Under the pieces are notes generated by a model, which ran no database searches, was not told the DNA's origin, and worked only from the letters and a program-made list of their open reading frames with translations. A stretch of 64,000 bases of DNA from a virus, in IMG/VR virus record IMGVR_UViG_3300036402_000045, positions 25,783-89,782 of that record, one strand, 5' to 3'. The stretch's first letter is position 1, and the number at the start of each line of letters is the position of its first letter. Positions 2,017 to 37,144 of this stretch are shown piece by piece. The position numbers were made by a program, and so were the translations under genes.

Positions 2017-2273
2017 TTCAGAATCTCGATCTCGTTGTCGTAGAAGTAGTAGATGTCGTGGAACCCGTTGATGCGGTCCATCAACCAATCGTGAACGGGA
2101 ATCCGAATCTCCGGACCCTGCCACGGACAAAGCAGAACCTTGTTCGGGTACTTGTCGGAGTCGTTCTCCAACAGAACGCCCTCAGACCCCTCGAAGAAGC
2201 GTCCAGAGGGATCGTTGTATGCAACCCGGACCCGAATGGCATCGGGGCTTGCAAGAGCCTCTTCGGGCGTCAC
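2013..2273 (-). CDS. Hypothetical protein, 86 aa
   Basis: This is a small soluble protein beginning MTPEEALASPDAIRV. Its central part (SEGVLLENDSDKYPNKVLLC) resembles short beta-barrel phage proteins but cannot be assigned. Its start overlaps the SNF2 stop by four bases, so it is translationally coupled to the helicase gene. Confidence 0.75.
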   Translation of the reverse strand: MTPEEALASPDAIRVRVAYNDPSGRFFEGSEGVLLENDSDKYPNKVLLCPWQGPEIRIPVHDWLMDRINGFHDIYYFYDNEIEILK

Positions 2274-4027
2274 AGGAGATCCCGAATGTTCTGGAGCGTG
2301 ATGCGCTCGATCTGTCGGCCACCGTCTCGCTCGATGGTCCGGTTGGCAAGCGCCCGCTTGTAGTTCAGGAGCGCTTCGATCCTCTGCTCGATCGTGTCTT
2401 CGGCCTGAAGCTCGATGACGTTGACCGTCGTGGCAAGAGCCTCCAGGCCACGCAGACCGCCCGCTGCGGAACGCCCGATGGCCTGATCGTTACCTGCCGG
2501 TGTCCAACCCTTGTCGGTGAAGACGACGTAGGTGGCAACGCCAAGGTTGATGGCCTCGCGGTTCGCATCGATGGTTCCGATGTAGAGCTTGCAATCCTCG
2601 TCGTTGTTGAACCTTCGGATTTCCTCCTGCCGACGACGCAGGTTGATCTCACCGGTGACATACGCCGGGGAATAAGCCTCAAGCTCCCGCTGGATGATGC
2701 GGGTTGCCTTGCTCCACTGGGAGAAGATGATCGCCTTCTCACCGTTGGCGACAAGCTCCCGAACGATGTCCTTCAGTTCGACGATCTTGGCCGAATCCTT
2801 CGACCCGCCGTAAAGCTCCGGAGAGAAGCAAGCCTGCTTCAGCCGGATGATCTGCGGAAGAGCACCGTTGATGTTTCGGATTTCGCCGTTGTCCATGCGA
2901 AGGATGAACTCGTCACGGATCTCGTTGTAGAGCGCCCGAGCTTCACGGGTCAGTTCGATCACGCGGGGAGCGATGATGACCTTCGGAAGATCCTTGAGCA
3001 CCTGATCCTTGCGACGACGCAGGGAGATGTTCTGAATGAAGTCCCGAAGCTCGCCCATCGGCTCCGGGCGGTAGCCAACCGTGGCACCGCCGTTCTTGAT
3101 GGAGATCGCGTCCACGAACCGGTCGTAGATCGGAAAGTCTTCCGGGTAGAGCTTGTGCAGAACGCTCCAGATCTCTTCCGGACGATTCAGGATCGGCGTG
3201 CCCGACATCATCAGCCAACGCTTGCCCTCAAGCTGGAAGAAGCCACGCGTGACCTGAGCATCCGGAGTCTTCACCCGATGGTGCTCATCAACCACGATGA
3301 AGTCGTACTCGAATCCGAAAAGCTCTTCGTTGGCGAACTCGTATCCGATGATCTTCTTGTGAACGTTGCCGTCCTCGTAGATCGGCTTGGCCCGGATCGC
3401 CTCAAAGTTGACGACGGTGATCTCGGCCCGCTTCTCGATCTGTGCAGAGCGCTCTGCGCGTGTTCCGTTGACGACCTGAACCTCGAAGTCGAACTTGTCC
3501 GTGGCTTCAGATTCCCAGTTGAACTTCGCGCTGTTCGGGCAGACGACGAGCGTGCGGAACTGCTTGCCCTTCTTCTCGGCCTTCACCGCCATGATGCGGA
3601 TCGCAGCCAGAAGCATGATGGTCTTCCCTAGACCCATCTCGTCATTGAGAAGATCGATCTCTTCCTCCAGGATCTTCCCGACCGCAACCTTCTGGAAGTT
3701 GTAGAGCTTGCCTTCGAAGCCCGGAATCCGAAGCTTCGGAATCGGCATATCCGCAAGCCGCTTCTCTTCGGCTCGCGTTAGCCGTGCGTAGACGCCCTTC
3801 GAAAGCTCTGCCATCGGGAACGCCAACGACAGACGATCGAAGTACCGCATGTTGAACCGGAAGAGCCACTTGCTCAATTCCTGGTCGTACTCCGCAACGG
3901 GATCGGTGCCGAGAGGAAGGATCTCGCGCATGATGACGCTCTGCGCCTCGTACTTCTCGCTGGAGTCACACATCAAGACGATGTGCTTGCCCCTCGGATC
4001 GTTCTTCTTCGACAAGGTGATCTTCAC
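2270..4027 (-). CDS. SNF2-family DEAD-like ATPase/helicase
   Basis: This is a superfamily 2 translocase of about 585 aa. Walker A is DEMGLGKT near residue 140, motif II is VVDEHHRVK (DEHH in place of DEAH), and motif III is MMSGTP. The C-terminal RecA-like domain contains IIFSQWSKATR and motif VI as QAIGRSAAGG, where most SNF2 proteins read QaigRxhRiGQ. The GTG at 4027 is chosen because it lies seven bases after the -10 box TAGATT, as in the other leaderless genes here; TTG at 4036 and GTG at 4033 are alternatives. It probably remodels DNA-protein complexes in early infection. Confidence 0.93.
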   Translation of the reverse strand: MKITLSKKNDPRGKHIVLMCDSSEKYEAQSVIMREILPLGTDPVAEYDQELSKWLFRFNMRYFDRLSLAFPMAELSKGVYARLTRAEEKRLADMPIPKLRIPGFEGKLYNFQKVAVGKILEEEIDLLNDEMGLGKTIMLLAAIRIMAVKAEKKGKQFRTLVVCPNSAKFNWESEATDKFDFEVQVVNGTRAERSAQIEKRAEITVVNFEAIRAKPIYEDGNVHKKIIGYEFANEELFGFEYDFIVVDEHHRVKTPDAQVTRGFFQLEGKRWLMMSGTPILNRPEEIWSVLHKLYPEDFPIYDRFVDAISIKNGGATVGYRPEPMGELRDFIQNISLRRRKDQVLKDLPKVIIAPRVIELTREARALYNEIRDEFILRMDNGEIRNINGALPQIIRLKQACFSPELYGGSKDSAKIVELKDIVRELVANGEKAIIFSQWSKATRIIQRELEAYSPAYVTGEINLRRRQEEIRRFNNDEDCKLYIGTIDANREAINLGVATYVVFTDKGWTPAGNDQAIGRSAAGGLRGLEALATTVNVIELQAEDTIEQRIEALLNYKRALANRTIERDGGRQIERITLQNIRDLL

Positions 4028-4034
4028 AAGCACC

Positions 4035-4064
4035 AATCTAACAGCTTCGGAATGTTTACGTCAA
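4035..4064 (-). promoter_or_regulatory. Class-1 promoter of the SNF2 unit
   Basis: Minus strand: TTGACG (4064-4059), an 18-base spacer and TAGATT (4040-4035). The spacer contains AAACATTCCGAAG, the common operator half-site. A second TTCCGAA lies just upstream at 4072-4078. Confidence 0.7.
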
Positions 4065-4081
4065 GCGAATATTCGGAAACC

Positions 4082-4204
4082 CAGAGAGGGTCCGGTCGCC
4101 TTTCCCCGTCCGATCCCCCGCCAAGGGAATCGTGGGTTAGTGAACGCTTGGGGAAAAGCGCAGGCGACCTTGATCTCCGAAAGGCTGGAGACTGACCCTC
4201 TCTG
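4082..4204 (-). ncRNA. Candidate structured RNA A (three-way junction), unknown class
   Basis: No ORF fits this 123-nt stretch but it folds strongly. P1 pairs 4194-4204 with 4082-4092 (11 perfect base pairs). Two bases later P2 pairs 4187-4191 with 4174-4178 around an 8-nt loop. P3 pairs 4162-4169 with 4094-4101 (8 bp), continues as 4150-4155 with 4102-4107, and encloses a small hairpin (4111-4118 with 4126-4132 region). A TGCGTATCA motif ends at 4209, so a transcript would start at about 4203-4204, the first base of P1. No U-tract follows. The function is unknown. Confidence 0.55.
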
Positions 4205-4208
4205 AGAC

Positions 4209-4218
4209 TTGATACGCA
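4209..4218 (-). promoter_or_regulatory. Class-2 promoter motif TGCGTATCA before RNA A
   Basis: TGCG at 4218-4215 and TATCAA at 4214-4209 match the motif found 4-6 bases before leaderless start codons in the replication block. Here no start codon follows; instead RNA A begins five bases later. It lies just after the stop of the upstream gene. Confidence 0.55.
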
Positions 4219-5121: not shown

Positions 5122-5520
5122 TCAGCGATCGGAATAGAGGCTGTTGTGAGCCTTCACCCAATCACCATCAGCGATGAGCTTGCCACGGGGCTTACCGAGG
5201 TAGTGCCACGCAGAGCACTTGATCTCGGTGCCTCTGATCGGGTCGTGAGCAACCACGTCCCAAAGGGCATAGCCCGCACCGCGCTCCATACGGTCGATGC
5301 TCTTCCACGACGGACTGTTGTGTCGGAACGTCAGGACATCGCCGGTGATGGTGCCCGACTGATCGAGCTTGGCGACTGGGTAGCTGCCGAACTCAGAGAC
5401 GAAGTAGATCTTCCCCTCGATGGTGCAGTTCGGAATGATGTCCTCGTAGCCACCACGGTCGTTCCACGCGTTCGGTCGGAGCGTTCCGTACACGAAGCAG
5501 GAGATGAGATGGTCGCTCAC
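5122..5520 (-). CDS. Gamma-glutamylcyclotransferase-like (AIG2) protein, 132 aa
   Basis: The N-terminal FVYGTLRPNAWND is the nucleotide-free GGCT/AIG2 loop signature. The DRMERGAGYALW segment carries the glutamate that acts as catalytic base in the family, and length and ending fit a stand-alone GGCT domain. Family members release 5-oxoproline from gamma-glutamyl amines. It is third in the 6959 operon (ATGA overlap with the 171-aa gene). The amidoligase and glutamine amidotransferase lie in nearby units, which suggests one gamma-glutamyl chemistry pathway. That pathway is inferred. Confidence 0.85.
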   Translation of the reverse strand: MSDHLISCFVYGTLRPNAWNDRGGYEDIIPNCTIEGKIYFVSEFGSYPVAKLDQSGTITGDVLTFRHNSPSWKSIDRMERGAGYALWDVVAHDPIRGTEIKCSAWHYLGKPRGKLIADGDWVKAHNSLYSDR

Positions 5521-6032
5521 TTCTGAGCCGCCTTTTCGAACAGGTCGATGATGACCGCAACATCGAAGGTGACGGTGTTGCCTTCGTTGCCTTGGAAGAA
5601 GGTGTAGTTCTCGTCTTCGACCAGACGAGTACCCGTGAGCGTCAGAACTTTCCGCTCAAACTTGATCCGCTGACTCTCTGATTCGATCCGCTTCAGAAGG
5701 TACTCTCTTTCGGAATCAAGCTGTTCTTGAACCCGCTCACGGAACCGCTCCGTCATCGGTGACAACGACTGGGGATGAGCAAGAACAGGAACCCACGTCA
5801 TGTTGTGGACGTTGAACGCCGCAAGAGCGACCTTCGTGGCTTGGCGCTGGACGCCGTACTCATCGGTGTAGCGCCCCTTCTTGTCGGCCTTGACGTACTC
5901 CTTCGTCTTGGCGTCCCGATACCAACGCTCGATGTCAAGAACGAGCGACAGGAACGGACGAGAGGACGAGTACCGACCACCGGGTCGGGAGTAGATGACC
6001 TCCCGACCCTGCTCGATCTCCGAAAGCTTCAT
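5517..6032 (-). CDS. Hypothetical protein, 171 aa
   Basis: It begins MKLSEIEQGREVIYSRPGG and has a basic middle and a long charged helix near residues 95-130. It is coupled by ATGA overlaps both to the 289-aa gene upstream and to the GGCT-like gene downstream, so the three are probably made together. No family was recognised. Confidence 0.8.
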   Translation of the reverse strand: MKLSEIEQGREVIYSRPGGRYSSSRPFLSLVLDIERWYRDAKTKEYVKADKKGRYTDEYGVQRQATKVALAAFNVHNMTWVPVLAHPQSLSPMTERFRERVQEQLDSEREYLLKRIESESQRIKFERKVLTLTGTRLVEDENYTFFQGNEGNTVTFDVAVIIDLFEKAAQK

Positions 6033-6898
6033 GCCTGCACCCCAGCGGCACGCAGAGCGGCCTCAAGAGCGTCACGGGACATCGTTCCCCGACCGGCGAT
6101 GTTGTGCGTTGCGGCAAGCCGACGAAGGGCGTCACGGTTCAAACCGGAAAGCCCGTCGTCGTCGGAACCAACGATCGCCCGCATGATGCCTTGTGCCTCG
6201 GCAAGCTCGTCATCGGTGTATTCCCGCTCTTCGCCGTCCTCGTCGTCCTCGATCTCGCCTGAGAGCATGGCGTTGATCTCATCGATCCCCTGCGCGGCCT
6301 CGTCCTCGATCAGAGCATCGACGTAATCGGCAACCGCCGCCATCGTCGTGTCGGACGGAACCTCTTCGACCACCAGACGGCCCGAGATGTTGTCGGCGCG
6401 TCCTTCGGAAACCAGCGCGTCCCATGTCTCCTGCGTGTAGATGGCGCGGGCCACGACACCGGGGATGCGGCCCTCACGAACCCGAGCACGGAACATCGTC
6501 GGCTTGGCGGCGTAGAAGAGCGAGCACGCCCAAGCGAACGAGTCCAGGCGAGAACCCGTCGAAGCGTTGATGTGCTGGCGCAGGCCCGTGAACAGATCGA
6601 TCACGGTGAACCGCTTCAGCGTCAGCGTTCCCGGCGTGTTCGCAGCGGACAGGCTCATGCGCTGGCCCGGTCGATAGCTGTACCGCTGCCAGATGTGACC
6701 GGCGACGTGGATCGTCGGCACCGGCAGCGACCGGTACGACTCACAGATCGCCGTGACCATCGGCATGACGGCCTCGATCTTCTCGGCGTCCGTCTCCAGA
6801 CGCCACGGCTTCGCCTCGAAGAGAGCGACAGCGGCAGCAACCGCATCCTCTCGGATCTCTCGGTACTTCAGGTGTGGCCGCTGAACGGTCATCGGCAT
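6029..6898 (-). CDS. Hypothetical protein with C-terminal HeH/SAP-like module, 289 aa
   Basis: The ATG at 6898 has GAAAGGGAG nine bases upstream. Residues 1-190 form an unassigned domain. Then comes an acidic linker (EIEDDEDGEEREYTDDE), and the last 35 residues (LNRDALRRLAATHNIAGRG and following) look like a Rho-N/HeH module. It heads the operon that contains the GGCT-like protein. A DNA-associated early protein is possible, but so is a substrate of the neighbouring amidoligase set. Confidence 0.8.
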   Translation of the reverse strand: MPMTVQRPHLKYREIREDAVAAAVALFEAKPWRLETDAEKIEAVMPMVTAICESYRSLPVPTIHVAGHIWQRYSYRPGQRMSLSAANTPGTLTLKRFTVIDLFTGLRQHINASTGSRLDSFAWACSLFYAAKPTMFRARVREGRIPGVVARAIYTQETWDALVSEGRADNISGRLVVEEVPSDTTMAAVADYVDALIEDEAAQGIDEINAMLSGEIEDDEDGEEREYTDDELAEAQGIMRAIVGSDDDGLSGLNRDALRRLAATHNIAGRGTMSRDALEAALRAAGVQA

Positions 6899-6930
6899 TG
6901 CGCTCCCTTTCGGTTGTAGTCGTCGTGCTG

Positions 6931-6959
6931 AGTATGGATCGGAATGTTTCCGATGTCAA
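6931..6959 (-). promoter_or_regulatory. Class-1 promoter with full palindromic operator
   Basis: Minus strand: TTGACA (6959-6954), a 17-base spacer, CATACT (6936-6931). The spacer holds the complete palindrome TCGGAAACATTCCGA, two TTCCGA half-sites separated by three bases. A leader of about 30 bases with a normal ribosome site follows. Confidence 0.7.
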
Positions 6960-6968
6960 GAAGGTTTC

Positions 6969-7460
6969 TCATGCATCCTCGGTTTCCTTGTCACCAACCA
7001 GAAATCTCGGACCATTGACAGAGACGATCGCCCAACGGAACCAAAGCACCGTCTCGCAATCCCATCCGTAGAGATCGTGAGGCTGTGAGTGGCGCGTACG
7101 CCACTGACCCTCTTCGGTCAGGTGCATACCGTCGTACTCCCGAGCCATCGCTTCGAAGTCAAGACCGGTGGTATACCGATCCCCCACGCCGAACCGCTTG
7201 TGCAGATCATTGAGATCCGCAACGGTGTCAACGACAGCGAGGTTCGGGTTGTCGATCGTCTCCAGATCCCAGAGCGTGAACGGCGGTCCACCGAATTTTT
7301 CGGAAACACACCAGTCAACCCAATGGCTCTCGTTGGTCGGATGAGGGGGAGAAGTCCACAACCCACCACTGAGCGGCTTCTTCCACGGATGCGTGCAATT
7401 CACGATCGGCTTGAACGACTGATAACGAGGCTTCTTCACGCCTTGGAAGATGACCTTCAC
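6969..7460 (-). CDS. Hypothetical protein, 163 aa
   Basis: It is rich in W, H and P (GGLWTSPPHPTNESHWVDWC near residues 32-51; LYGWDCETVLWF near residues 130-141). The repeated W/H pattern and the late W-D-C-E-T segment recall small phage enzymes with an ADP-ribosyltransferase-like fold, but I cannot confirm this. Its start overlaps the amidotransferase stop (ATGA), so it is co-translated with that enzyme. Confidence 0.8.
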   Translation of the reverse strand: MKVIFQGVKKPRYQSFKPIVNCTHPWKKPLSGGLWTSPPHPTNESHWVDWCVSEKFGGPPFTLWDLETIDNPNLAVVDTVADLNDLHKRFGVGDRYTTGLDFEAMAREYDGMHLTEEGQWRTRHSQPHDLYGWDCETVLWFRWAIVSVNGPRFLVGDKETEDA

Positions 7461-8419
7461 TGATCCGCCTTGCGCTTCTGCGGCTGGCCGTCAGGGAAGA
7501 GACGCTTCTGCGCCCTCTCGTCCTGCCTGCGCTCCAGATAGGCACGGATGGCGGCGTCCCTGCCCATCCCGTATTCGAAGCCCGTAGAGACAGCCACAGG
7601 CCGTGTCGGTGACGTTGCAGAACCCGTTCCCCGGTAAGACGGATCGGTTCCGAACCTCACCGCGATCTCTGCGGCGGTCAACACCTTCGGACGAGGACGA
7701 GGCCGGAACGTCTTCCGCTCCACGATGTCACCGTACGAAACGGCAAGCACCCGATCTTCGGAAACCGTCGAGAACTTCGTGAAGACGATATCCGGCTCAA
7801 GCTGAAGCAGAGCTTCCTTGTCCGAGGCCCAGATCAGGTTCCCGCGGTCGGTCCACCCGAGCGTCAACTGACGGCCCGTGCTCCGAGCGATGTAGATCGT
7901 GTCGGGTTCCGTGATCCGGCTGTAGACCGCAACCATCGCGCCCTTGATCTTCCGAAGCCCCTTGATGTGGCCCCACTTGTTGACCGCAGCGAAGATGGCC
8001 TCGGAGTCAACCTCGGTCTTCGGATCTTCCCGACCCGTCACGTCCAGAATCTCTTCGAAGTTCGTGAGAACGCCGTTGTGAACGCCCACGATGTCACCGT
8101 GCGGGATCGGATGGTTGTTCCGCACGTCAGCGGGATCACCGTTGGTGGCCCAGCGCGTGTGGCCGATGACCCAGTAGGCGTCATCCGAGACGTTCTTCAG
8201 AATGTTCTCCAGAGCGCTGTTCGTGTCACAGCGACCGGGGAACTTGGCCCACGTCACGTCGGGCTTCGTCGGATCGGTGTCCTTGTTCGGAACCCACTGT
8301 GCCCACCCGTAAGCGTGCGGTCCCTGTCGGACCAGAGCAGGGAAGAGGATGGCGGCGATCTGCGCCGTGCTCAGATCCTCTTCGTTCTCGTTGTATGAGA
8401 TTCCCCAAATTCTGCACAT
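7457..8419 (-). CDS. Class II glutamine amidotransferase, 320 aa
   Basis: The chain starts MCRIWGISYN, so Cys2 becomes the N-terminal nucleophile of an Ntn-type glutaminase (GATase II). Further family marks are the GHTRWATNG loop near residue 90 and DIVGVHNGVLTNFEE near residue 115. The last ~80 residues are basic and low in similarity to synthetase partners, and no synthase domain is attached, so ammonia must go to a separate protein. The amidoligase next to it is the obvious partner. The ribosome site GAGAGGAAGG precedes the ATG. Confidence 0.92.
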   Translation of the reverse strand: MCRIWGISYNENEEDLSTAQIAAILFPALVRQGPHAYGWAQWVPNKDTDPTKPDVTWAKFPGRCDTNSALENILKNVSDDAYWVIGHTRWATNGDPADVRNNHPIPHGDIVGVHNGVLTNFEEILDVTGREDPKTEVDSEAIFAAVNKWGHIKGLRKIKGAMVAVYSRITEPDTIYIARSTGRQLTLGWTDRGNLIWASDKEALLQLEPDIVFTKFSTVSEDRVLAVSYGDIVERKTFRPRPRPKVLTAAEIAVRFGTDPSYRGTGSATSPTRPVAVSTGFEYGMGRDAAIRAYLERRQDERAQKRLFPDGQPQKRKADQ

Positions 8420-8447
8420 CGGCTATCGCCTTCCTCTCTCGTAGTTG

Positions 8448-8476
8448 ATTGAATCATGCTTCGGAATGTTTGTCAA
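8448..8476 (-). promoter_or_regulatory. Class-1 promoter of the amidotransferase unit
   Basis: Minus strand: TTGACA (8476-8471), a 17-base spacer with AACATTCCGAAG, and TTCAAT (8453-8448). The same -10 hexamer is used at 9949. Confidence 0.6.
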
Positions 8477-8477
8477 C

Positions 8478-8711
8478 TCAGTCATCGTCAAGCGCGTTTT
8501 CGCAAACCGCCTGAATCGTGATGATCGCCGTCCTGAGTCCGTCCACGTCATCAAGAGACGTAGCTGCCGCCATTCCGATTGCGTGGACGTATCGCTCCCA
8601 CTTATCGCTTGCGACCTTGGCGCACTCGACCGGGATATCCAGCTTCTCTCCCCGGCTTGCGCGGACCTGCACAGCAATGGCCGCTTCCTCTGCTTGCTCG
8701 CGAGCGCCCAT
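8478..8711 (-). CDS. Hypothetical protein, 77 aa
   Basis: The start MGAREQAEEA at 8711 overlaps the upstream stop (TGATG). It is a mostly helical, acidic protein ending ALDDD and runs up to the amidotransferase promoter. No family was recognised. Confidence 0.7.
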   Translation of the reverse strand: MGAREQAEEAAIAVQVRASRGEKLDIPVECAKVASDKWERYVHAIGMAAATSLDDVDGLRTAIITIQAVCENALDDD

Positions 8712-8968
8712 CACATGCCCCTTACTCGTTCTGCGTTGGCAACTGCGTGCGCCACGATGTCGGGCGCGGCTTGAGCCGAGATGACGTTGAGCAGATTGTC
8801 AACGACATCACACAACGAGAGGATCGTGGCCTTCTGATCCTCAACGATCGGCTCCCAAATATCACAAGCGTCCTTCGCTGCTTGTCTCCGAGCGCAGATG
8901 TGAAGTGGATGCCTGTCGTCGCACGCCGACGAACAAGCTCCCGCCATGACCGTCTCTCGGACGCTCAT
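8711..8968 (-). CDS. Hypothetical protein, 85 aa
   Basis: The ATG at 8968 overlaps the amidoligase stop (an adjacent ATG at 8971 is also possible). The N-terminal half has several cysteines and histidines (ACSSACDDRHPLHICARR) that could bind a metal, followed by a helical C-terminus. It is the middle gene of the amidoligase unit. Confidence 0.7.
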   Translation of the reverse strand: MSVRETVMAGACSSACDDRHPLHICARRQAAKDACDIWEPIVEDQKATILSLCDVVDNLLNVISAQAAPDIVAHAVANAERVRGM

Positions 8969-9906
8969 CATGCACCCACGAACCGACGCTGAGGCTTGGA
9001 GTCCTTCCAGAGAACCCGCAGGTTCTTCCAGTCCTCCTTTGACATGACCCGCTTCGTGTCCTTCGAGTCGGTCGTAAGGATCTGCTGGAGACGCAGGAGC
9101 ACGGCGTTTTCGGAAACCGTTCCCTGCTCCATCGAACCGAGCCTGTAGCTCTTCGCAACCGACCGGCTGTAGCCGTTGCGGGCATCGTCCACGATCGCCA
9201 TGCACAGAGCGAGGTAGGTCTGAACCCGACGAGGGTTGACGCTGCCGTTGAACACTCTGAACTCAACCGTGCCGTGGACCCAGTAGGAGCGGTAGTTGAC
9301 GGCGTAGTAGCGGTCCAGGCTGTTCGCCCACGCCCGTCCGTAACGGCTGTGCCTTCCGCTCTGGCCGAGGACGCCACGCCCGTTGGCGGTGTGACCGTCC
9401 CAAACGTTCTTCAGTTCCTCGATGGTCCGCACCTTCATAATCTCGCGGGCCGTCGCCTCCGGAACCGGCTTGCAGTACGTCGAAGCTCCGGTGCGGATCG
9501 TGTTCCAACCGCTCGAAGCGATGCGGTAGATCGCGTCCTCGAACTTGTAGAAGAACCGAGCAATCGCCGCCATCTGCTTTCCGGTCAGCGGAGTGCCGTC
9601 GTAGTTCTTCGCCTCGATGTGAACGTGGATGCCCGTCGCTTGTGAAGGCCGCATCCCGGCGTCCTGGAGAGCCTGAACCGCCGTGGTGACTTGCGCCCGT
9701 TGCGCCGGATCATCGAAGTCCAGCGGAGGGGAAACAAGCTCACCACCGCGGCTCACGGAACCGTCGTACTTCATCATCCAATCGGTCGGATCGTTTCCGG
9801 TGTGGCGACGACGCTCATCCTTGACGCCAAGACCAGCGGCACGAAGCGAAGCAATCGCATCGTCCATGTCACCCTCGAACTCGATCTCGATTCCGAAACG
9901 TCGCAT
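8968..9906 (-). CDS. Amidoligase (GS-like COOH-NH2 ligase), 312 aa
   Basis: It matches the amidoligase enzyme family. GIEIEFEG at the N-terminus, DGSVSRGGELVSPPL near residues 48-62 and GIHVHIEAKN near residue 92 give the Mg-ATP-binding Glu and His residues, and HGTVEFRVFNGSVN near residue 215 gives the conserved E-R pair. The family joins amino groups to side-chain or terminal carboxylates using ATP. It heads its own unit behind the 9977 promoter, with ribosome site AGGGAGCC. The target is unknown. Confidence 0.93.
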   Translation of the reverse strand: MRRFGIEIEFEGDMDDAIASLRAAGLGVKDERRRHTGNDPTDWMMKYDGSVSRGGELVSPPLDFDDPAQRAQVTTAVQALQDAGMRPSQATGIHVHIEAKNYDGTPLTGKQMAAIARFFYKFEDAIYRIASSGWNTIRTGASTYCKPVPEATAREIMKVRTIEELKNVWDGHTANGRGVLGQSGRHSRYGRAWANSLDRYYAVNYRSYWVHGTVEFRVFNGSVNPRRVQTYLALCMAIVDDARNGYSRSVAKSYRLGSMEQGTVSENAVLLRLQQILTTDSKDTKRVMSKEDWKNLRVLWKDSKPQRRFVGA

Positions 9907-11586: not shown

Positions 11587-11626
11587 GTTGTATGCTCCTG
11601 CTTGGTATCGGGACAGGTGCCACCGT

Positions 11627-11678
11627 ACACGGCCCCCACTATCCGAGCGCTCGTCGCTAACGGAGAAGGGGGCCGTGT
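11627..11678 (-). promoter_or_regulatory. Strong nested hairpin in leader of winged-helix gene
   Basis: Bases 11627-11637 pair perfectly with 11668-11678 (11 bp, GC-rich). Inside, 11642-11645 pair with 11661-11664 and 11646-11649 with 11655-11658. It lies about 40 bases before the ATG at 11586 and may attenuate that gene or belong to a replication origin. Confidence 0.5.
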
Positions 11679-11755
11679 CGCGTCTACCCTCGGCCACGGA
11701 GCCTGGTCGTTGTGTGTCCCGTAGCGACGGGATCAGCGACCGGCTCCACCTACTT

Positions 11756-11765
11756 TGCGTATCGT
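11756..11765 (+). promoter_or_regulatory. Class-2 promoter motif before RNA B
   Basis: TGCG followed by TATCGT (11760-11765) lies four bases before position 11770, where structured RNA B would begin. It is a one-base variant of the consensus. Confidence 0.45.
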
Positions 11766-11769
11766 TGTG

Positions 11770-11913
11770 ATGCGGGAGGACTAAGAGCACACCGAGGCTC
11801 TGGCGAGCGCTTACAACACCAGGCCGAATCCATCGCTAGGCCAGGATGGAAGGCAAACACTCATCCCGGTAACGGGTTCGCTCAACGTCCAGAGATAGAG
11901 GCGTCCTCCCGCT
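11770..11913 (+). ncRNA. Candidate structured RNA B, unknown class
   Basis: P1 pairs 11772-11781 with 11903-11912 (10 perfect bp). Two bases later P2 pairs 11784-11788 with 11797-11801 around an 8-nt loop, the same geometry as in RNA A. A further stem can pair 11805-11809 with 11879-11883, and inside it CCCG-GTAA-CGGG (11864-11876 region) forms a GNRA-type hairpin. A 4-codon frame starts at 11770 but no real ORF fits. A class-2 motif sits directly upstream. The function is unknown. Confidence 0.5.
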
Positions 11914-12119: not shown

Positions 12120-13394
12120 ATGACCGATCTCGACGGGGCGCTTGTCGCCTATGCCGTCCGTCGTCCGCTTGGGTTGACCGAGCTTCAGCGCGCTGGCATC
12201 ACAACTGAGTACCTGACCGATGACTATGCGAAGGCATGGGATTGGGTCAACCGCATGAAGCGCCAGCACGGTGCGATCCCTTCGCTTCGGGTCGTGCAGC
12301 AGCGCTATGCGGATCTCGATCTCACACCCGCTCGTCAACGAGACGTGCCGATGCTGGTTTCCGAAGTGAAGCAGCGGAAGAAGCTCATCGATTTCCACGA
12401 CGCAATCGAAAACGCTTCCTCTACCGCTCGATCGGTGGACGACATCGACCGTGCGCTCTCGCAGCTTCAGGCCCAACTCAACAGCCTCAACGTACAGGGG
12501 TTGGGCAACCAGTCGATCGTTGACCTGTTCAGCCGTTCCGCCAAACGACGGATGATGAAGGATCTGAAGCAGCGCCGGTCCGGGAAGATGATCGGCATCC
12601 CCACGGGGCTGAAGCGCTTCGACTTCGTGACGGGAGGACTCGTTTCCCGAAAGATGGTCGTCGTCATGGCGCGTACCGGCGTCGGCAAGTCATGGCTCAA
12701 CCTGCTCTTCGTTGCGAGCGCTGTCCTCAACGGCAACAAGGTCGTGCTCTATCCGTTGGAGATGACGCTGGAGGAAACGGCTCTTCGCCTCTACACGATC
12801 TTCAGCCAGAAGATGTTCCGAGGAAGCGACACTCTGAAGAACCTCGATCTGACGATGGGACGCTTCAGCCCTCGCAAGGTCGTGCGCCTGCTCAACATGC
12901 TGGAGGACAAGTACGAAGGTCAGTTGTTCGTGGCCGACGTTGCGAGCCTCAGCGATCCCTACACGCCCGAGCGGGTGGAGTCTGAAGTTGAGCTTTACAA
13001 GCCCGACATGTTCTGGGTCGATTACCTCACGCTCCTGAAGGCCCCGAACGGTCGCAGCGGTGCGGAGGACTACACATCGATCAAGGTGCTCTCCAACGCC
13101 ATCAAGGGGATCGCACAGCGACAGGGGTGTGTCGGTGGTGCATCGGCTCAGGTGAACCGCGACGCCATGAAGGTGCGAAGCTTCATCCCCCGTGTTGAGC
13201 ACATCAGCTACGGCGATTCCATCGGCCACGATGCGGATCAGATTCTTTCACTGGGGAGGAAGGATGAGCACCTTTACTACGGCCTCGTCAAGAACCGTGG
13301 CGGTCCCGAGATCGGGCGCACGCGCATGAAGGCGTTCTTCGATGAAGGACGTATCGAAGAGGACGAGCAACAGGAGTCCGAGGATGACGATTGA
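12120..13394 (+). CDS. dnaB: DnaB-type replicative helicase, 424 aa
   Basis: The RecA-like C-terminal domain has Walker A ARTGVGKS near residue 183, then VVLYPLEMTLEE (the H1a-type segment), Walker B FWVDYLTLL near residue 300 and HISYGDSIGHDADQ near the end. The N-terminal 120 residues fit a reduced DnaB N-domain. It unwinds DNA at the fork with the primase encoded at 16832. The start lies six bases after the class-2 -10 motif and has no ribosome site. The acidic tail (EEDEQQESEDDD) may contact partners. Confidence 0.92.
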   Translation: MTDLDGALVAYAVRRPLGLTELQRAGITTEYLTDDYAKAWDWVNRMKRQHGAIPSLRVVQQRYADLDLTPARQRDVPMLVSEVKQRKKLIDFHDAIENASSTARSVDDIDRALSQLQAQLNSLNVQGLGNQSIVDLFSRSAKRRMMKDLKQRRSGKMIGIPTGLKRFDFVTGGLVSRKMVVVMARTGVGKSWLNLLFVASAVLNGNKVVLYPLEMTLEETALRLYTIFSQKMFRGSDTLKNLDLTMGRFSPRKVVRLLNMLEDKYEGQLFVADVASLSDPYTPERVESEVELYKPDMFWVDYLTLLKAPNGRSGAEDYTSIKVLSNAIKGIAQRQGCVGGASAQVNRDAMKVRSFIPRVEHISYGDSIGHDADQILSLGRKDEHLYYGLVKNRGGPEIGRTRMKAFFDEGRIEEDEQQESEDDD

Positions 13395-13551
13395 GTTCAT
13401 GCGCTGTCCCTCCTGCAACAACGAGCACCTTAGGGATCATTGCGAAAGCCCGTCGTGCCCGTGGAAGAAGTGTCGCAACTGCAATGCGTACGGTCCCAAG
13501 TCACCGAATCCGAAAGTTCCGTGGCGTTCCGACAAGAAGGATGAACGATGA
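13384..13551 (+). CDS. Zinc-ribbon protein, 55 aa
   Basis: The ATG lies inside the end of dnaB. The protein has CPSC, CESPSC and CRNC cysteine pairs, the pattern of a small zinc-binding module, and a basic C-terminus. Its coupling to dnaB suggests a replication accessory, but this is not shown. Confidence 0.75.
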   Translation: MTIEFMRCPSCNNEHLRDHCESPSCPWKKCRNCNAYGPKSPNPKVPWRSDKKDER

Positions 13552-13802
13552 CCGGTCCCGATGAAGAGGCATTCCGTCAGCTTGCCAAGCAGGACACTCG
13601 GAAGTTCGTCATCACACAGGCGTTCGCGCACGGCTTCGTAACCCAAGTGATTCCGGTGATGACCCCAGACGGCGAGCACGAACAACAAATCCGCATCGAG
13701 GGGCCGTGGATGGAAGTCGGCTACTACGAGGAAGCTCTGTTCATCAAATCCTCAGCGATGCCCGCCTCAACGGTAGCGAAGTTCGAAGTGGTTTCCGAAT
13801 GA
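13548..13802 (+). CDS. Hypothetical protein, 84 aa
   Basis: The ATG at 13548 overlaps the previous stop (ATGA). The protein is soluble and begins MTGPDEEAFRQLAKQD. It ends in TTTCCGAATGA, so a TTCCGAA heptamer falls at its 3' end. No family was recognised. Confidence 0.75.
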   Translation: MTGPDEEAFRQLAKQDTRKFVITQAFAHGFVTQVIPVMTPDGEHEQQIRIEGPWMEVGYYEEALFIKSSAMPASTVAKFEVVSE

Positions 13803-14278
13803 AGCTCTTGGTCTGTGGCTCCCGTGATTGGGACGACGAGAACACCATCTGGTCGATCCTCGACGGCTACTACGAGAACGACACACTGGGCCACCTGACA
13901 GTCACGATGGCGTCGTTCACATTGATCGAAGGCGGGGCCAAGGGAGCGGACGCTTGCGCTCACCGATGGGCAAAGAACAGCCCGCTGCATTCGCACAACG
14001 AGCGACCTGATGATCCGGAGTTCCGTCACGTCACGGTCAATGCGAAGTGGGACGAGCATCATCCCAAGTGGTGTCCTTCGGACTGGTGCGCCGCGCGGGA
14101 CTACTGCGTTGGTGCCGGTCCTCGTCGCAACCAACGAATGATCGATCGACACAAGCCCGATCTCGTTCTCGCATTCAAGAACGGGTTCAACTGGAAGCTC
14201 AACAAGGGCGGCACCGAAGACATGGTTTCCCGCGCCATCGCAGCAGAGATCGATTACTACGTGATCGGAAGGAAGTAA
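13799..14278 (+). CDS. SLOG-family (YspA/cpYpsA-like) nucleotide-binding protein, 159 aa
   Basis: MKLLVCGSRDWDDENTIW is the N-terminal beta-strand/loop of the YspA/cpYpsA SLOG branch, and LIEGGAKGADACAHRWA near residue 45 is the ligand-binding GGxxGxD motif. SLOG domains bind nucleotide-derived ligands and some act in phage-host conflict. The ATG overlaps the previous stop. The ligand is unknown. Confidence 0.88.
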   Translation: MKLLVCGSRDWDDENTIWSILDGYYENDTLGHLTVTMASFTLIEGGAKGADACAHRWAKNSPLHSHNERPDDPEFRHVTVNAKWDEHHPKWCPSDWCAARDYCVGAGPRRNQRMIDRHKPDLVLAFKNGFNWKLNKGGTEDMVSRAIAAEIDYYVIGRK

Positions 14279-20900: not shown

Positions 20901-20910
20901 TGCGTATCAC
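20901..20910 (+). promoter_or_regulatory. Class-2 promoter of thyX
   Basis: TGCG plus TATCAC (20905-20910), then TAGGC and the thyX ATG at 20916. It lies right after the terminator, so it must drive the next unit. Confidence 0.65.
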
Positions 20911-35412: not shown

Positions 35413-36369
35413 CTACTCCGTAACACTGACCTGCACATGGGCAGGCCATCCCGGTGCCCATCCTTCGACCGAGAGGATCGTCCCGTTGCTGCCGGGAAGG
35501 TCATCGGCAGCGAAGCCGAGCTTGGCGTTCTGGTACTTCTGGTCAGCCTCCGGGCGCAGGCCAGGTTCGAGAGCACCCTTGATCTGGGTCTTCGACCACG
35601 GAAGACGGACCCAACCGAACCCGGCATAGGGACCGGAGCTTCCGGTTCCAACGATCACGTCGTAGGTGTTCAACTGCATGTCAATTTCCTCCGATGAGAG
35701 AAGCGTGAGCCACGCCGGGGGCGCGGGAGTTGGCGGCGTTGGTTCGGAAATCACCATGCCACCACGAACGAACTGCATTACTGCACCGCCAGGGCAAGCG
35801 GTCTGCTTCCAATCGGCATGAACGTGCCGCTCGGTTCCGGAGCCGCGGGCCTCGTACCACTCGAAGACATTCCGAAGTCCACGTCGGGCATCCACAGTGA
35901 ACTCATCGCCCTCGCCCATCAAGACGCAATGGGCGTAGCTGCGATCGTTCCCGGTATTGGTGCCGTTGGCAGCCGTTCGCCATCCGTACCAGCGTCCTTC
36001 GAAGATGAACCCGTGACGGCAAGTGACATCGGAATATGCGATGTCATTCCAGCCCTGGTGCTCCATGTGGTACTTCTGAATTCCACGGAGCTTGGTGGCG
36101 CAGGACGTGTGCGGATAGTCCCCGAGGCCCGGACCTTCCCAGTGGGCCGTGTTGCCGCGTGCGGTCGTTAGACCGGTCCTGCCCGTTGCGGCCTTGGCTC
36201 CCCAAGAAACCCGAGGGATGAACTTCGCAGGCGGCGGCGTTCCCTTGACGCTGAGGATGGCGTTCTGGAAAGGCGGGGACTCGATCTGGCCGACGTACTC
36301 CAGAACCTCGTAAAGCTCCAGGAGATCCGCAGGAACGGAAAGATGTTCTGCTTCGAGAAGCTCAGTCAA
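35413..36369 (-). CDS. Endolysin: N-acetylmuramoyl-L-alanine amidase, 318 aa
   Basis: The amidase_2/PGRP domain spans about residues 50-200: WGAKA, NTAHWEG with the first zinc His (residue ~76), CRHGFIFEGRWYGWRTAANG, and HVHADWKQTACPGG with the second His, Lys and Cys. It cleaves the bond between the glycan and the stem peptide. The last ~90 residues form an unassigned domain that may bind the wall. The start is TTG at 36369, overlapping the caspase-like gene. Confidence 0.92.
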   Translation of the reverse strand: MTELLEAEHLSVPADLLELYEVLEYVGQIESPPFQNAILSVKGTPPPAKFIPRVSWGAKAATGRTGLTTARGNTAHWEGPGLGDYPHTSCATKLRGIQKYHMEHQGWNDIAYSDVTCRHGFIFEGRWYGWRTAANGTNTGNDRSYAHCVLMGEGDEFTVDARRGLRNVFEWYEARGSGTERHVHADWKQTACPGGAVMQFVRGGMVISEPTPPTPAPPAWLTLLSSEEIDMQLNTYDVIVGTGSSGPYAGFGWVRLPWSKTQIKGALEPGLRPEADQKYQNAKLGFAADDLPGSNGTILSVEGWAPGWPAHVQVSVTE

Positions 36370-37144
36370 GGGGACTCCTGAATGCTTGGTAGAGCGTCGC
36401 GCCGAACTGCGGCGTCTGCGGATAGGACGGAGAAGGCAGCGCCAAACGGATGCGGCGATACCACTCGCGGAACGTCTTCACGTCAGGACCGAGAGCATCG
36501 ATGGCCGCTCGGGTGAAGGCTCCGTTGGGACGATTTCCGAAGGAGGCGTCGTAGCTGTATTCCGGATCGTCGCAACCCGAGATCAGAACCGGACCGCTTC
36601 GACTCGTCGCCCGGATGAACGTGCGCTCTGCGGCGATGGCAGCCTCGACGCTCACGGGAACCGAAGGGATCAAGCCGGGAGAGATGAACTTCGGCTTTCC
36701 GGGAGGGGGAGCAGACGCCATGATCCCTCGGGCCACGGTTCCGGAGTGGCAGGAATCCGAAAGAACCGTGATCTGCGTTCCGTGGCGAGCACGGCCAAAG
36801 ATCGTGTGCATCTCGTCATCGATGAGAAGGCCACCGCTGGCGTAGTCGTGACAGCACAGCGCTTCGTCACGACCATCCGGCTCGTCACCGTCGCCGTCCG
36901 GAACCCACGTCCCGTGACCCGAGTAGCAGAACACGAACCGATCCCGGTACTTCATCGAATCCACGATGCCGAGAAGTTCAGCCACGATCCGGGCCTTGGT
37001 AGCCGAGGAATCCAGAAGCGTCGTGACGGTGTAGCCGCGCGACTGAAGAACCTGTGACCAGTCCATCGCATCGTTGATGCAACCGGAAAGATCTCCCGCT
37101 CCGGGGTAGTCGTTGATCCCTACGCACAAGGCAATACGTCGCAT
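36362..37144 (-). CDS. Metacaspase-like cysteine peptidase (C14), 260 aa
   Basis: It has the caspase fold marks: RRIALCVGINDYPGAGDLSG at the N-terminus, the catalytic His in VFCYSGHGTW (H77) and the catalytic Cys in VLSDSCHSG (C132), the exact type-I metacaspase motif. The acidic GDGDEPDGRDE loop also fits. No prodomain or second domain is present. The gene lies between a tail gene group and the endolysin, with overlapping stop/start on the amidase side. A role in lysis, maturation or host cell death is open. Confidence 0.9.
   Translation of the reverse strand: MRRIALCVGINDYPGAGDLSGCINDAMDWSQVLQSRGYTVTTLLDSSATKARIVAELLGIVDSMKYRDRFVFCYSGHGTWVPDGDGDEPDGRDEALCCHDYASGGLLIDDEMHTIFGRARHGTQITVLSDSCHSGTVARGIMASAPPPGKPKFISPGLIPSVPVSVEAAIAAERTFIRATSRSGPVLISGCDDPEYSYDASFGNRPNGAFTRAAIDALGPDVKTFREWYRRIRLALPSPSYPQTPQFGATLYQAFRSPLD

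Follow-up and report, generated by a model that had tools for sequence, protein, structure and literature searches.

A candidate small RNA gene with a stable branched fold next to a promoter-like signal in a tailed phage

In a 64,000-nt window of viral DNA (bases 25783-89782 of the 89.8-kb virus record IMGVR_UViG_3300036402_000045, here G000), a 123-nt structured non-coding stretch on the minus strand at window positions 4082-4204, designated RNA A, is probably a lineage-specific, free-standing phage small RNA and, as judged from sequence, a candidate gene. To the fuller reading that RNA A is a stand-alone minus-strand RNA of ~120 nt transcribed under the signal TGCGTATCA, acting in trans as a stable decoy or scaffold and replacing a small protein gene, we would give about an even chance. 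G000 is a tailed phage, encoding a portal, a major capsid protein, a tape measure protein, a phrog_405 DNA polymerase, a DnaB-like helicase, RecA and ThyX; the collections hold only distant relatives (G002, G004, G005 and G007, each 73-81 kb), in which the major capsid protein has 62-77% of its sequence in common with that of G000, and this phage group is without any studied member. The closest relative of its ThyX among bacterial genomes is 46% identical, too low for naming the host. If transcribed, RNA A would be a phage RNA gene absent from all RNA libraries. Positions below are those of the window unless a genome is named.

A stable branched fold on the minus strand

The computed minus-strand fold of RNA A comprises a closing stem, a three-way junction and a second branched arm, with a minimum free energy of -65.3 kcal/mol. 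In the terminal stem P1, the 5' strand CAGAGAGGGUC (4194-4204) pairs with the 3' strand GACCCUCUCUG (4082-4092) over 11 bp, the length given in the original prediction. Inside it lie hairpin P2 (4173-4192), which has the 8-nt loop that had been described (AGCCUUUC) and a stem of 6 bp (5 Watson-Crick pairs plus one G-U) rather than the 5 bp then proposed, and the P3 arm (4094-4169), whose 8 bp (4169-4162 with 4101-4094), already described as branched, fork into hairpins P4 (4144-4161; 6 bp, loop UUCCCC at 4155-4150) and P5 (4105-4136; 9 bp with a 3-bp lower part).

None of 1000 dinucleotide shuffles was equally stable (z -5.38), and neither the z nor the energy of RNA A was reached by any of 1000 random 123-nt windows of G000, the lowest 0.1% of which lie at z -4.5; across the 4485 windows scanned genome-wide, its energy was the second lowest, and the P3 arm alone has z -3.1. 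The fold is also well defined, with an ensemble diversity of 4.1 (equally well defined: 0.4% of 1000 random G000 windows). Both ATG and GTG are absent from the 123 nt, as is the case for 3% of random G000 windows, in agreement with the earlier view that the stretch holds no open reading frame. By itself, an 11-bp stem of such a span is nothing unusual, with 15 stems of at least 10 bp in the 90 kb; what stands out is the complete fold together with its position. These figures bear on whether RNA A is a chance fold in a short intergenic gap beside a chance or unrelated copy of TGCGTATCA, a view favored by the single sequence, the lack of a homologue and the look-elsewhere effect of a genome first scanned by eye; against the standing of RNA A among random and genome-wide windows, and a coincidence with the predicted transcription start that is independent of the fold, we judge this explanation to be quite improbable.

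The antisense of RNA A is clearly less stable (z -3.63). Because the sense strand outfolds the antisense, partly through G-U pairs in P5 that exist solely in the minus-strand RNA, this computed strand preference argues for an RNA rather than a DNA palindrome. While the 11-bp inverted repeat at the ends would also suit an element working at the DNA level (a protein binding site, or the end of a recombination or mobile element) whose inverted repeats are merely RNA-like, the strand-specific stability, the single copy in the genome and the lack of any visible flanking duplication render such an element highly unlikely. Within the RNA, the P4 loop may pair with GGGGAA at 4107-4102, a pseudoknot that would cost the lower 3 bp of P5 and ~1 kcal in P4 and gain ~-9 to -11 kcal before the knot penalty; in this energy model it is possibly about isoenergetic with the plain fold.

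A promoter-like signal ahead of the fold

The class-2 promoter-like 9-mer TGCGTATCA, a single box, occupies 4210-4218 (minus strand), 2 nt past the stop codon of the gene at 5060-4221. It occurs 11 times in G000 vs. 0.35-0.42 expected under Markov models of order 2-4, and 12 of the 16 copies and near-copies have ATG, GTG or TTG 6-8 nt downstream (background per three-position window, 13%), including the sites at the DnaB-like helicase (12120) and at ThyX (site at 20901); no -35 consensus is visible at these sites. Because the 6-8 nt spacing puts the transcription start on the start codon, the sites look like promoters of leaderless mRNAs. Such mRNAs are widespread in mycobacteria, in which an RTG at +1 is both required and enough (PMC4633059). 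Since no start codon follows the copy at 4218 and the 9-mer does not resemble a Shine-Dalgarno sequence, we infer that TGCGTATCA is a single -10-like promoter box and not a ribosome signal.

At the 4218 copy, the terminal stem P1 stands in place of the start codon. Applying the 6-7 nt spacing seen at leaderless genes, the transcription start is predicted at A4203 or G4202, which are bases 2 and 3 of P1; stems of at least 9 bp begin at 0.5% of random positions. The distance of five bases originally stated between signal and first paired base is correct for the 9-mer TGCGTATCA, whereas the 10-mer quoted there, TGCGTATCAA, ends four bases before it. These signal statistics, like the fold, are computed, while transcription from the site and the 3' end of RNA A are what we infer. 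With a start 6-7 nt downstream, the signal would also allow the transcription starts of about a dozen other genes to be predicted exactly.

Late promoters of phage T4 consist of a single -10-like box without a -35 element and are used at many phage genes. As a signal, with no bearing on the RNA, TGCGTATCA is likewise a single -10-like box without -35 found at many genes; it differs from the T4 box in sequence, and no phage sigma factor was identified among the G000 proteins scanned.

The gene at 5060-4221, which belongs to no family, ends 17 nt before the fold begins, and with RNA A lying between two same-strand promoters, and strong folds being known to protect the 3' ends of transcripts, RNA A might be a 3' end structure of this gene that stabilises or terminates its transcript or serves as a processing site, setting the gene apart from the helicase unit downstream. 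We hold this to be unlikely: a simple hairpin would suffice where RNA A has a branched fold, the exact copy of TGCGTATCA just before the fold is left unexplained, and the U-tract is missing, the letters after P1 being GGUUUCCGAAUAUUCG and not the U run that follows the G+C-rich hairpin of an intrinsic terminator.

Neighboring genes and the gap filled by RNA A

On the other side of RNA A, on the same strand, lies an SNF2-type helicase gene (phrog_62; 2270-4027, minus strand), the start of which was revised to GTG 4027 by analogy with its relatives, which begin VKIxLSKK or similar. This start is leaderless and without Shine-Dalgarno sequence. By consensus and spacing, the helicase has its own promoter at 4035-4064 (minus strand), made up of TTGACG (4064-4059), 18 nt, TAGATT (4040-4035) and 7 nt before the GTG, and similar TTGAC ... 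TANNNT ... start layouts also precede gene 5060 and gene 31371. With this promoter, the helicase would not need that of RNA A. The -35/-10 spacers of these class-1 promoters (genes 5060-4221, 4027-2270, 1266-1036 and 31371) share GGAATGTTT or AAACATTCC in either orientation, likely the operator of a common regulator.

RNA A is on the helicase strand and ends 55 nt ahead of the GTG with no terminator separating the two, an arrangement in keeping with a structured 5' leader (a riboswitch or other cis-regulator) of the helicase mRNA. However, a riboswitch sits in a 5' UTR without an intervening promoter, whereas by consensus TTGACG-N18-TAGATT-N7-GTG stands between RNA A and the helicase; as the gene is leaderless and has no Shine-Dalgarno sequence, a transcript from 4203 would be expected to translate poorly. 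With neither an Rfam riboswitch match nor an alternative terminator or anti-Shine-Dalgarno hairpin at the 3' end of RNA A, we consider the leader an improbable explanation. A separate small RNA, which had been favored over a leader from the start, is still the best reading in view of the real TGCGTATCA signal, the start on the terminal stem and the helicase's own leaderless promoter; its transcription and selection on its structure remain predictions.

In G002, G004, G005 and G007, the gene directly upstream of the helicase is small (~70-80 codons) and belongs to a single family (37-46% mutual identity), and in G007 a distant homologue of gene 5060 sits upstream of the small gene. When this gene was sought in G000 by tblastn, no significant match was obtained (best E 0.11), and RNA A fills the gap between helicase and gene 5060 where the four long relatives keep the small protein gene. 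If both serve the helicase or its operon, a link that is positional only, the replacement of a conserved small protein gene by an RNA at this site would amount to an interesting natural experiment.

Search for homologues and a second site

That RNA A does not look like any known RNA class was supported by comparison with Rfam (release 15, 4227 models), with no match at gathering thresholds in the window and none around RNA A even at E <= 10; ARAGORN reported no tRNA or tmRNA genes in the window. With BLASTN in distant mode, RNA A drew only chance matches of 19-32 nt from phages and plasmids, and from the four long relatives and all fragments only RNA A itself was returned by BLASTN (7-base words) and by R1, a covariance model built on the single sequence, with no counterpart found in G002, G004, G005 or G007. 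R1 also had no match in 192 bacterial genomes from the phylum of the best ThyX relative, a run without positive control that is uninformative. As for a Y RNA, which would call for a TROVE/Ro60 protein (PF05731) encoded nearby or possibly by the host, the domain is absent from the phage record, and the control genome was positive. At the depth sampled in the phage, plasmid and IMG/VR collections, RNA A thus appears lineage-specific, a single sequence with no homologue found in them. Two matches in IMG/VR to the exact promoter-plus-stem pattern were dismissed as chance, one lying within a reading frame and neither having the fold.

A second site, RNA B, is a non-coding stretch at 11772-11912 (plus strand) flanked by the genes for a replication-initiator-like protein (HTH_36) and the DnaB-like helicase. 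Here a 10-bp terminal stem (GCGGGAGGAC/GTCCTCCCGC) comes 7 nt after a weaker promoter copy, TGCGTATCG at 11756 (plus strand), and begins exactly at the start predicted from TGCGTATCG; the interior has no well-defined fold (ensemble diversity 37, z -2.8). RNA B was rejected as a paralogue of RNA A, being missed by R1 and resembling it in no more than the promoter, the terminal stem and a first loop of 8 nt. RNA B backs the promoter-plus-stem arrangement, not kinship with RNA A. Upstream of the HTH_36 gene, at 11610-11750 (plus strand), two large hairpins lying side by side, ACACGGCCCCC...GGGGGCCGTGT and GGAGCC...GGCTCC, with -63.9 kcal/mol per 124 nt, suggest an origin-like or another structured element.

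Comparison with known phage RNAs and possible function

Phage small RNAs described to date include lambda OOP, Phi24B 24B_1 and VP882 VpdS, with 38 more listed without function (PMC12197685). Similar to OOP, 24B_1 and VpdS, RNA A is small and non-coding and lies in an intergenic or antisense region with its own promoter, here a predicted one. Whereas these RNAs act by base pairing, several with Hfq, RNA A is fully paired at its 5' end, lacks a U-rich tail and finds no antisense target of more than 13 nt in the phage. There are two 13-nt complements in the genome vs. an estimated ~0.3 expected, a weak excess, and as antisense to phage translation starts the loops showed no clear enrichment vs. 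random regions, so base pairing against phage mRNAs is unsupported. Given the paired 5' end, the lack of a U-rich tail and the single stable fold, a stable partner-binding RNA fits better than an antisense RNA of the Hfq type.

We surmise that TGCGTATCA, as a single -10-like box, drives transcription from the second or third base of P1, and that a start inside P1 would give RNA A a blunt, paired 5' end. The exposed parts, the pyrimidine-rich loops AGCCUUUC and UUUUCCCC, might then be presented to a partner from the host or the phage, with a protein or RNP likelier than an mRNA, which would amount to a decoy or scaffold role, and RNA A may have taken the place of the small protein gene kept upstream of the helicase in the relatives. 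Mechanism and partner are thus proposals; given transcription, we put a protein- or RNP-binding decoy or scaffold at about one in four.

RNA A resembles the pRNA of phi29 in its length of ~120 nt, its paired 5' and 3' ends and a three-way junction with two arms, but it matches no Rfam model, the pRNA model included, and G000 is another kind of phage, of 90 kb and with a conserved portal and a major capsid protein of another type. Two loops of pRNA pair through 3-4 nt, with covariation between relatives (PMC12670572); by inspection of its one sequence, the P5 loop of RNA A contains GGC and the P2 loop GCC, a 3-nt complementarity that is at chance level. Like RNA anti-CRISPRs (Racr; PMC10651486), RNA A is a structured RNA that stands alone just downstream of a phage promoter, in its case a predicted one. 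Racrs are solitary copies of CRISPR repeats, similar in sequence and fold to a repeat of the host, whereas RNA A has a branched fold of 123 nt. Stand-alone phage small RNAs are a known kind, many of them with no assigned function (PMC12197685), and RNA A, while outside the described families, is a single sequence and as such is not callable a new class. We would regard as rather doubtful the proposal that it represents a novel class of structural RNAs in phages, knotted at the core (UUCCCC/GGGGAA by P3), that it works as a protein-binding scaffold or decoy and that the phage has two or more such RNAs under this single-box promoter, the second at 11772-11912 (plus strand).

Other features of the genome

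The octamers TTTCCGAA and TTTCGGAA (palindromic 9-mer TTTCSGAAA) occur 90 and 52 times in G000 vs. 4 expected (~13-22x over-represented) and are over-represented in G002 and G007 as well, whereas G004, G005 and G008 show no such excess. Most copies are inside genes, on both strands, one copy (4073-4080, minus strand) being directly 3' of RNA A, and together they constitute a dispersed iterated or stoperator-like site. Two intergenic stretches of ~1.2 kb (G000:10225-11480 and 12903-14139) carry iterated GGAACCCC, TACCTAC and AGCGCTAG motifs and are possibly an origin or repeat region. Helicase homologues at G005:42476-45304 (957 aa) and G007:46294-50139 (1299 aa) are long open frames with intein-like in-frame insertions. 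A gene cluster at 5122-9906 (minus strand) encodes a GGACT cyclotransferase, a class II glutamine amidotransferase-like protein and an amidoligase, a possible peptide or amide modification pathway in the phage; the cluster is kept in G002 and G007, and the latter two genes also in G004. Finally, a caspase-domain protein (PF00656, E 7e-24) is encoded at 36362-37144 (minus strand), amid tail and lysis-side genes.
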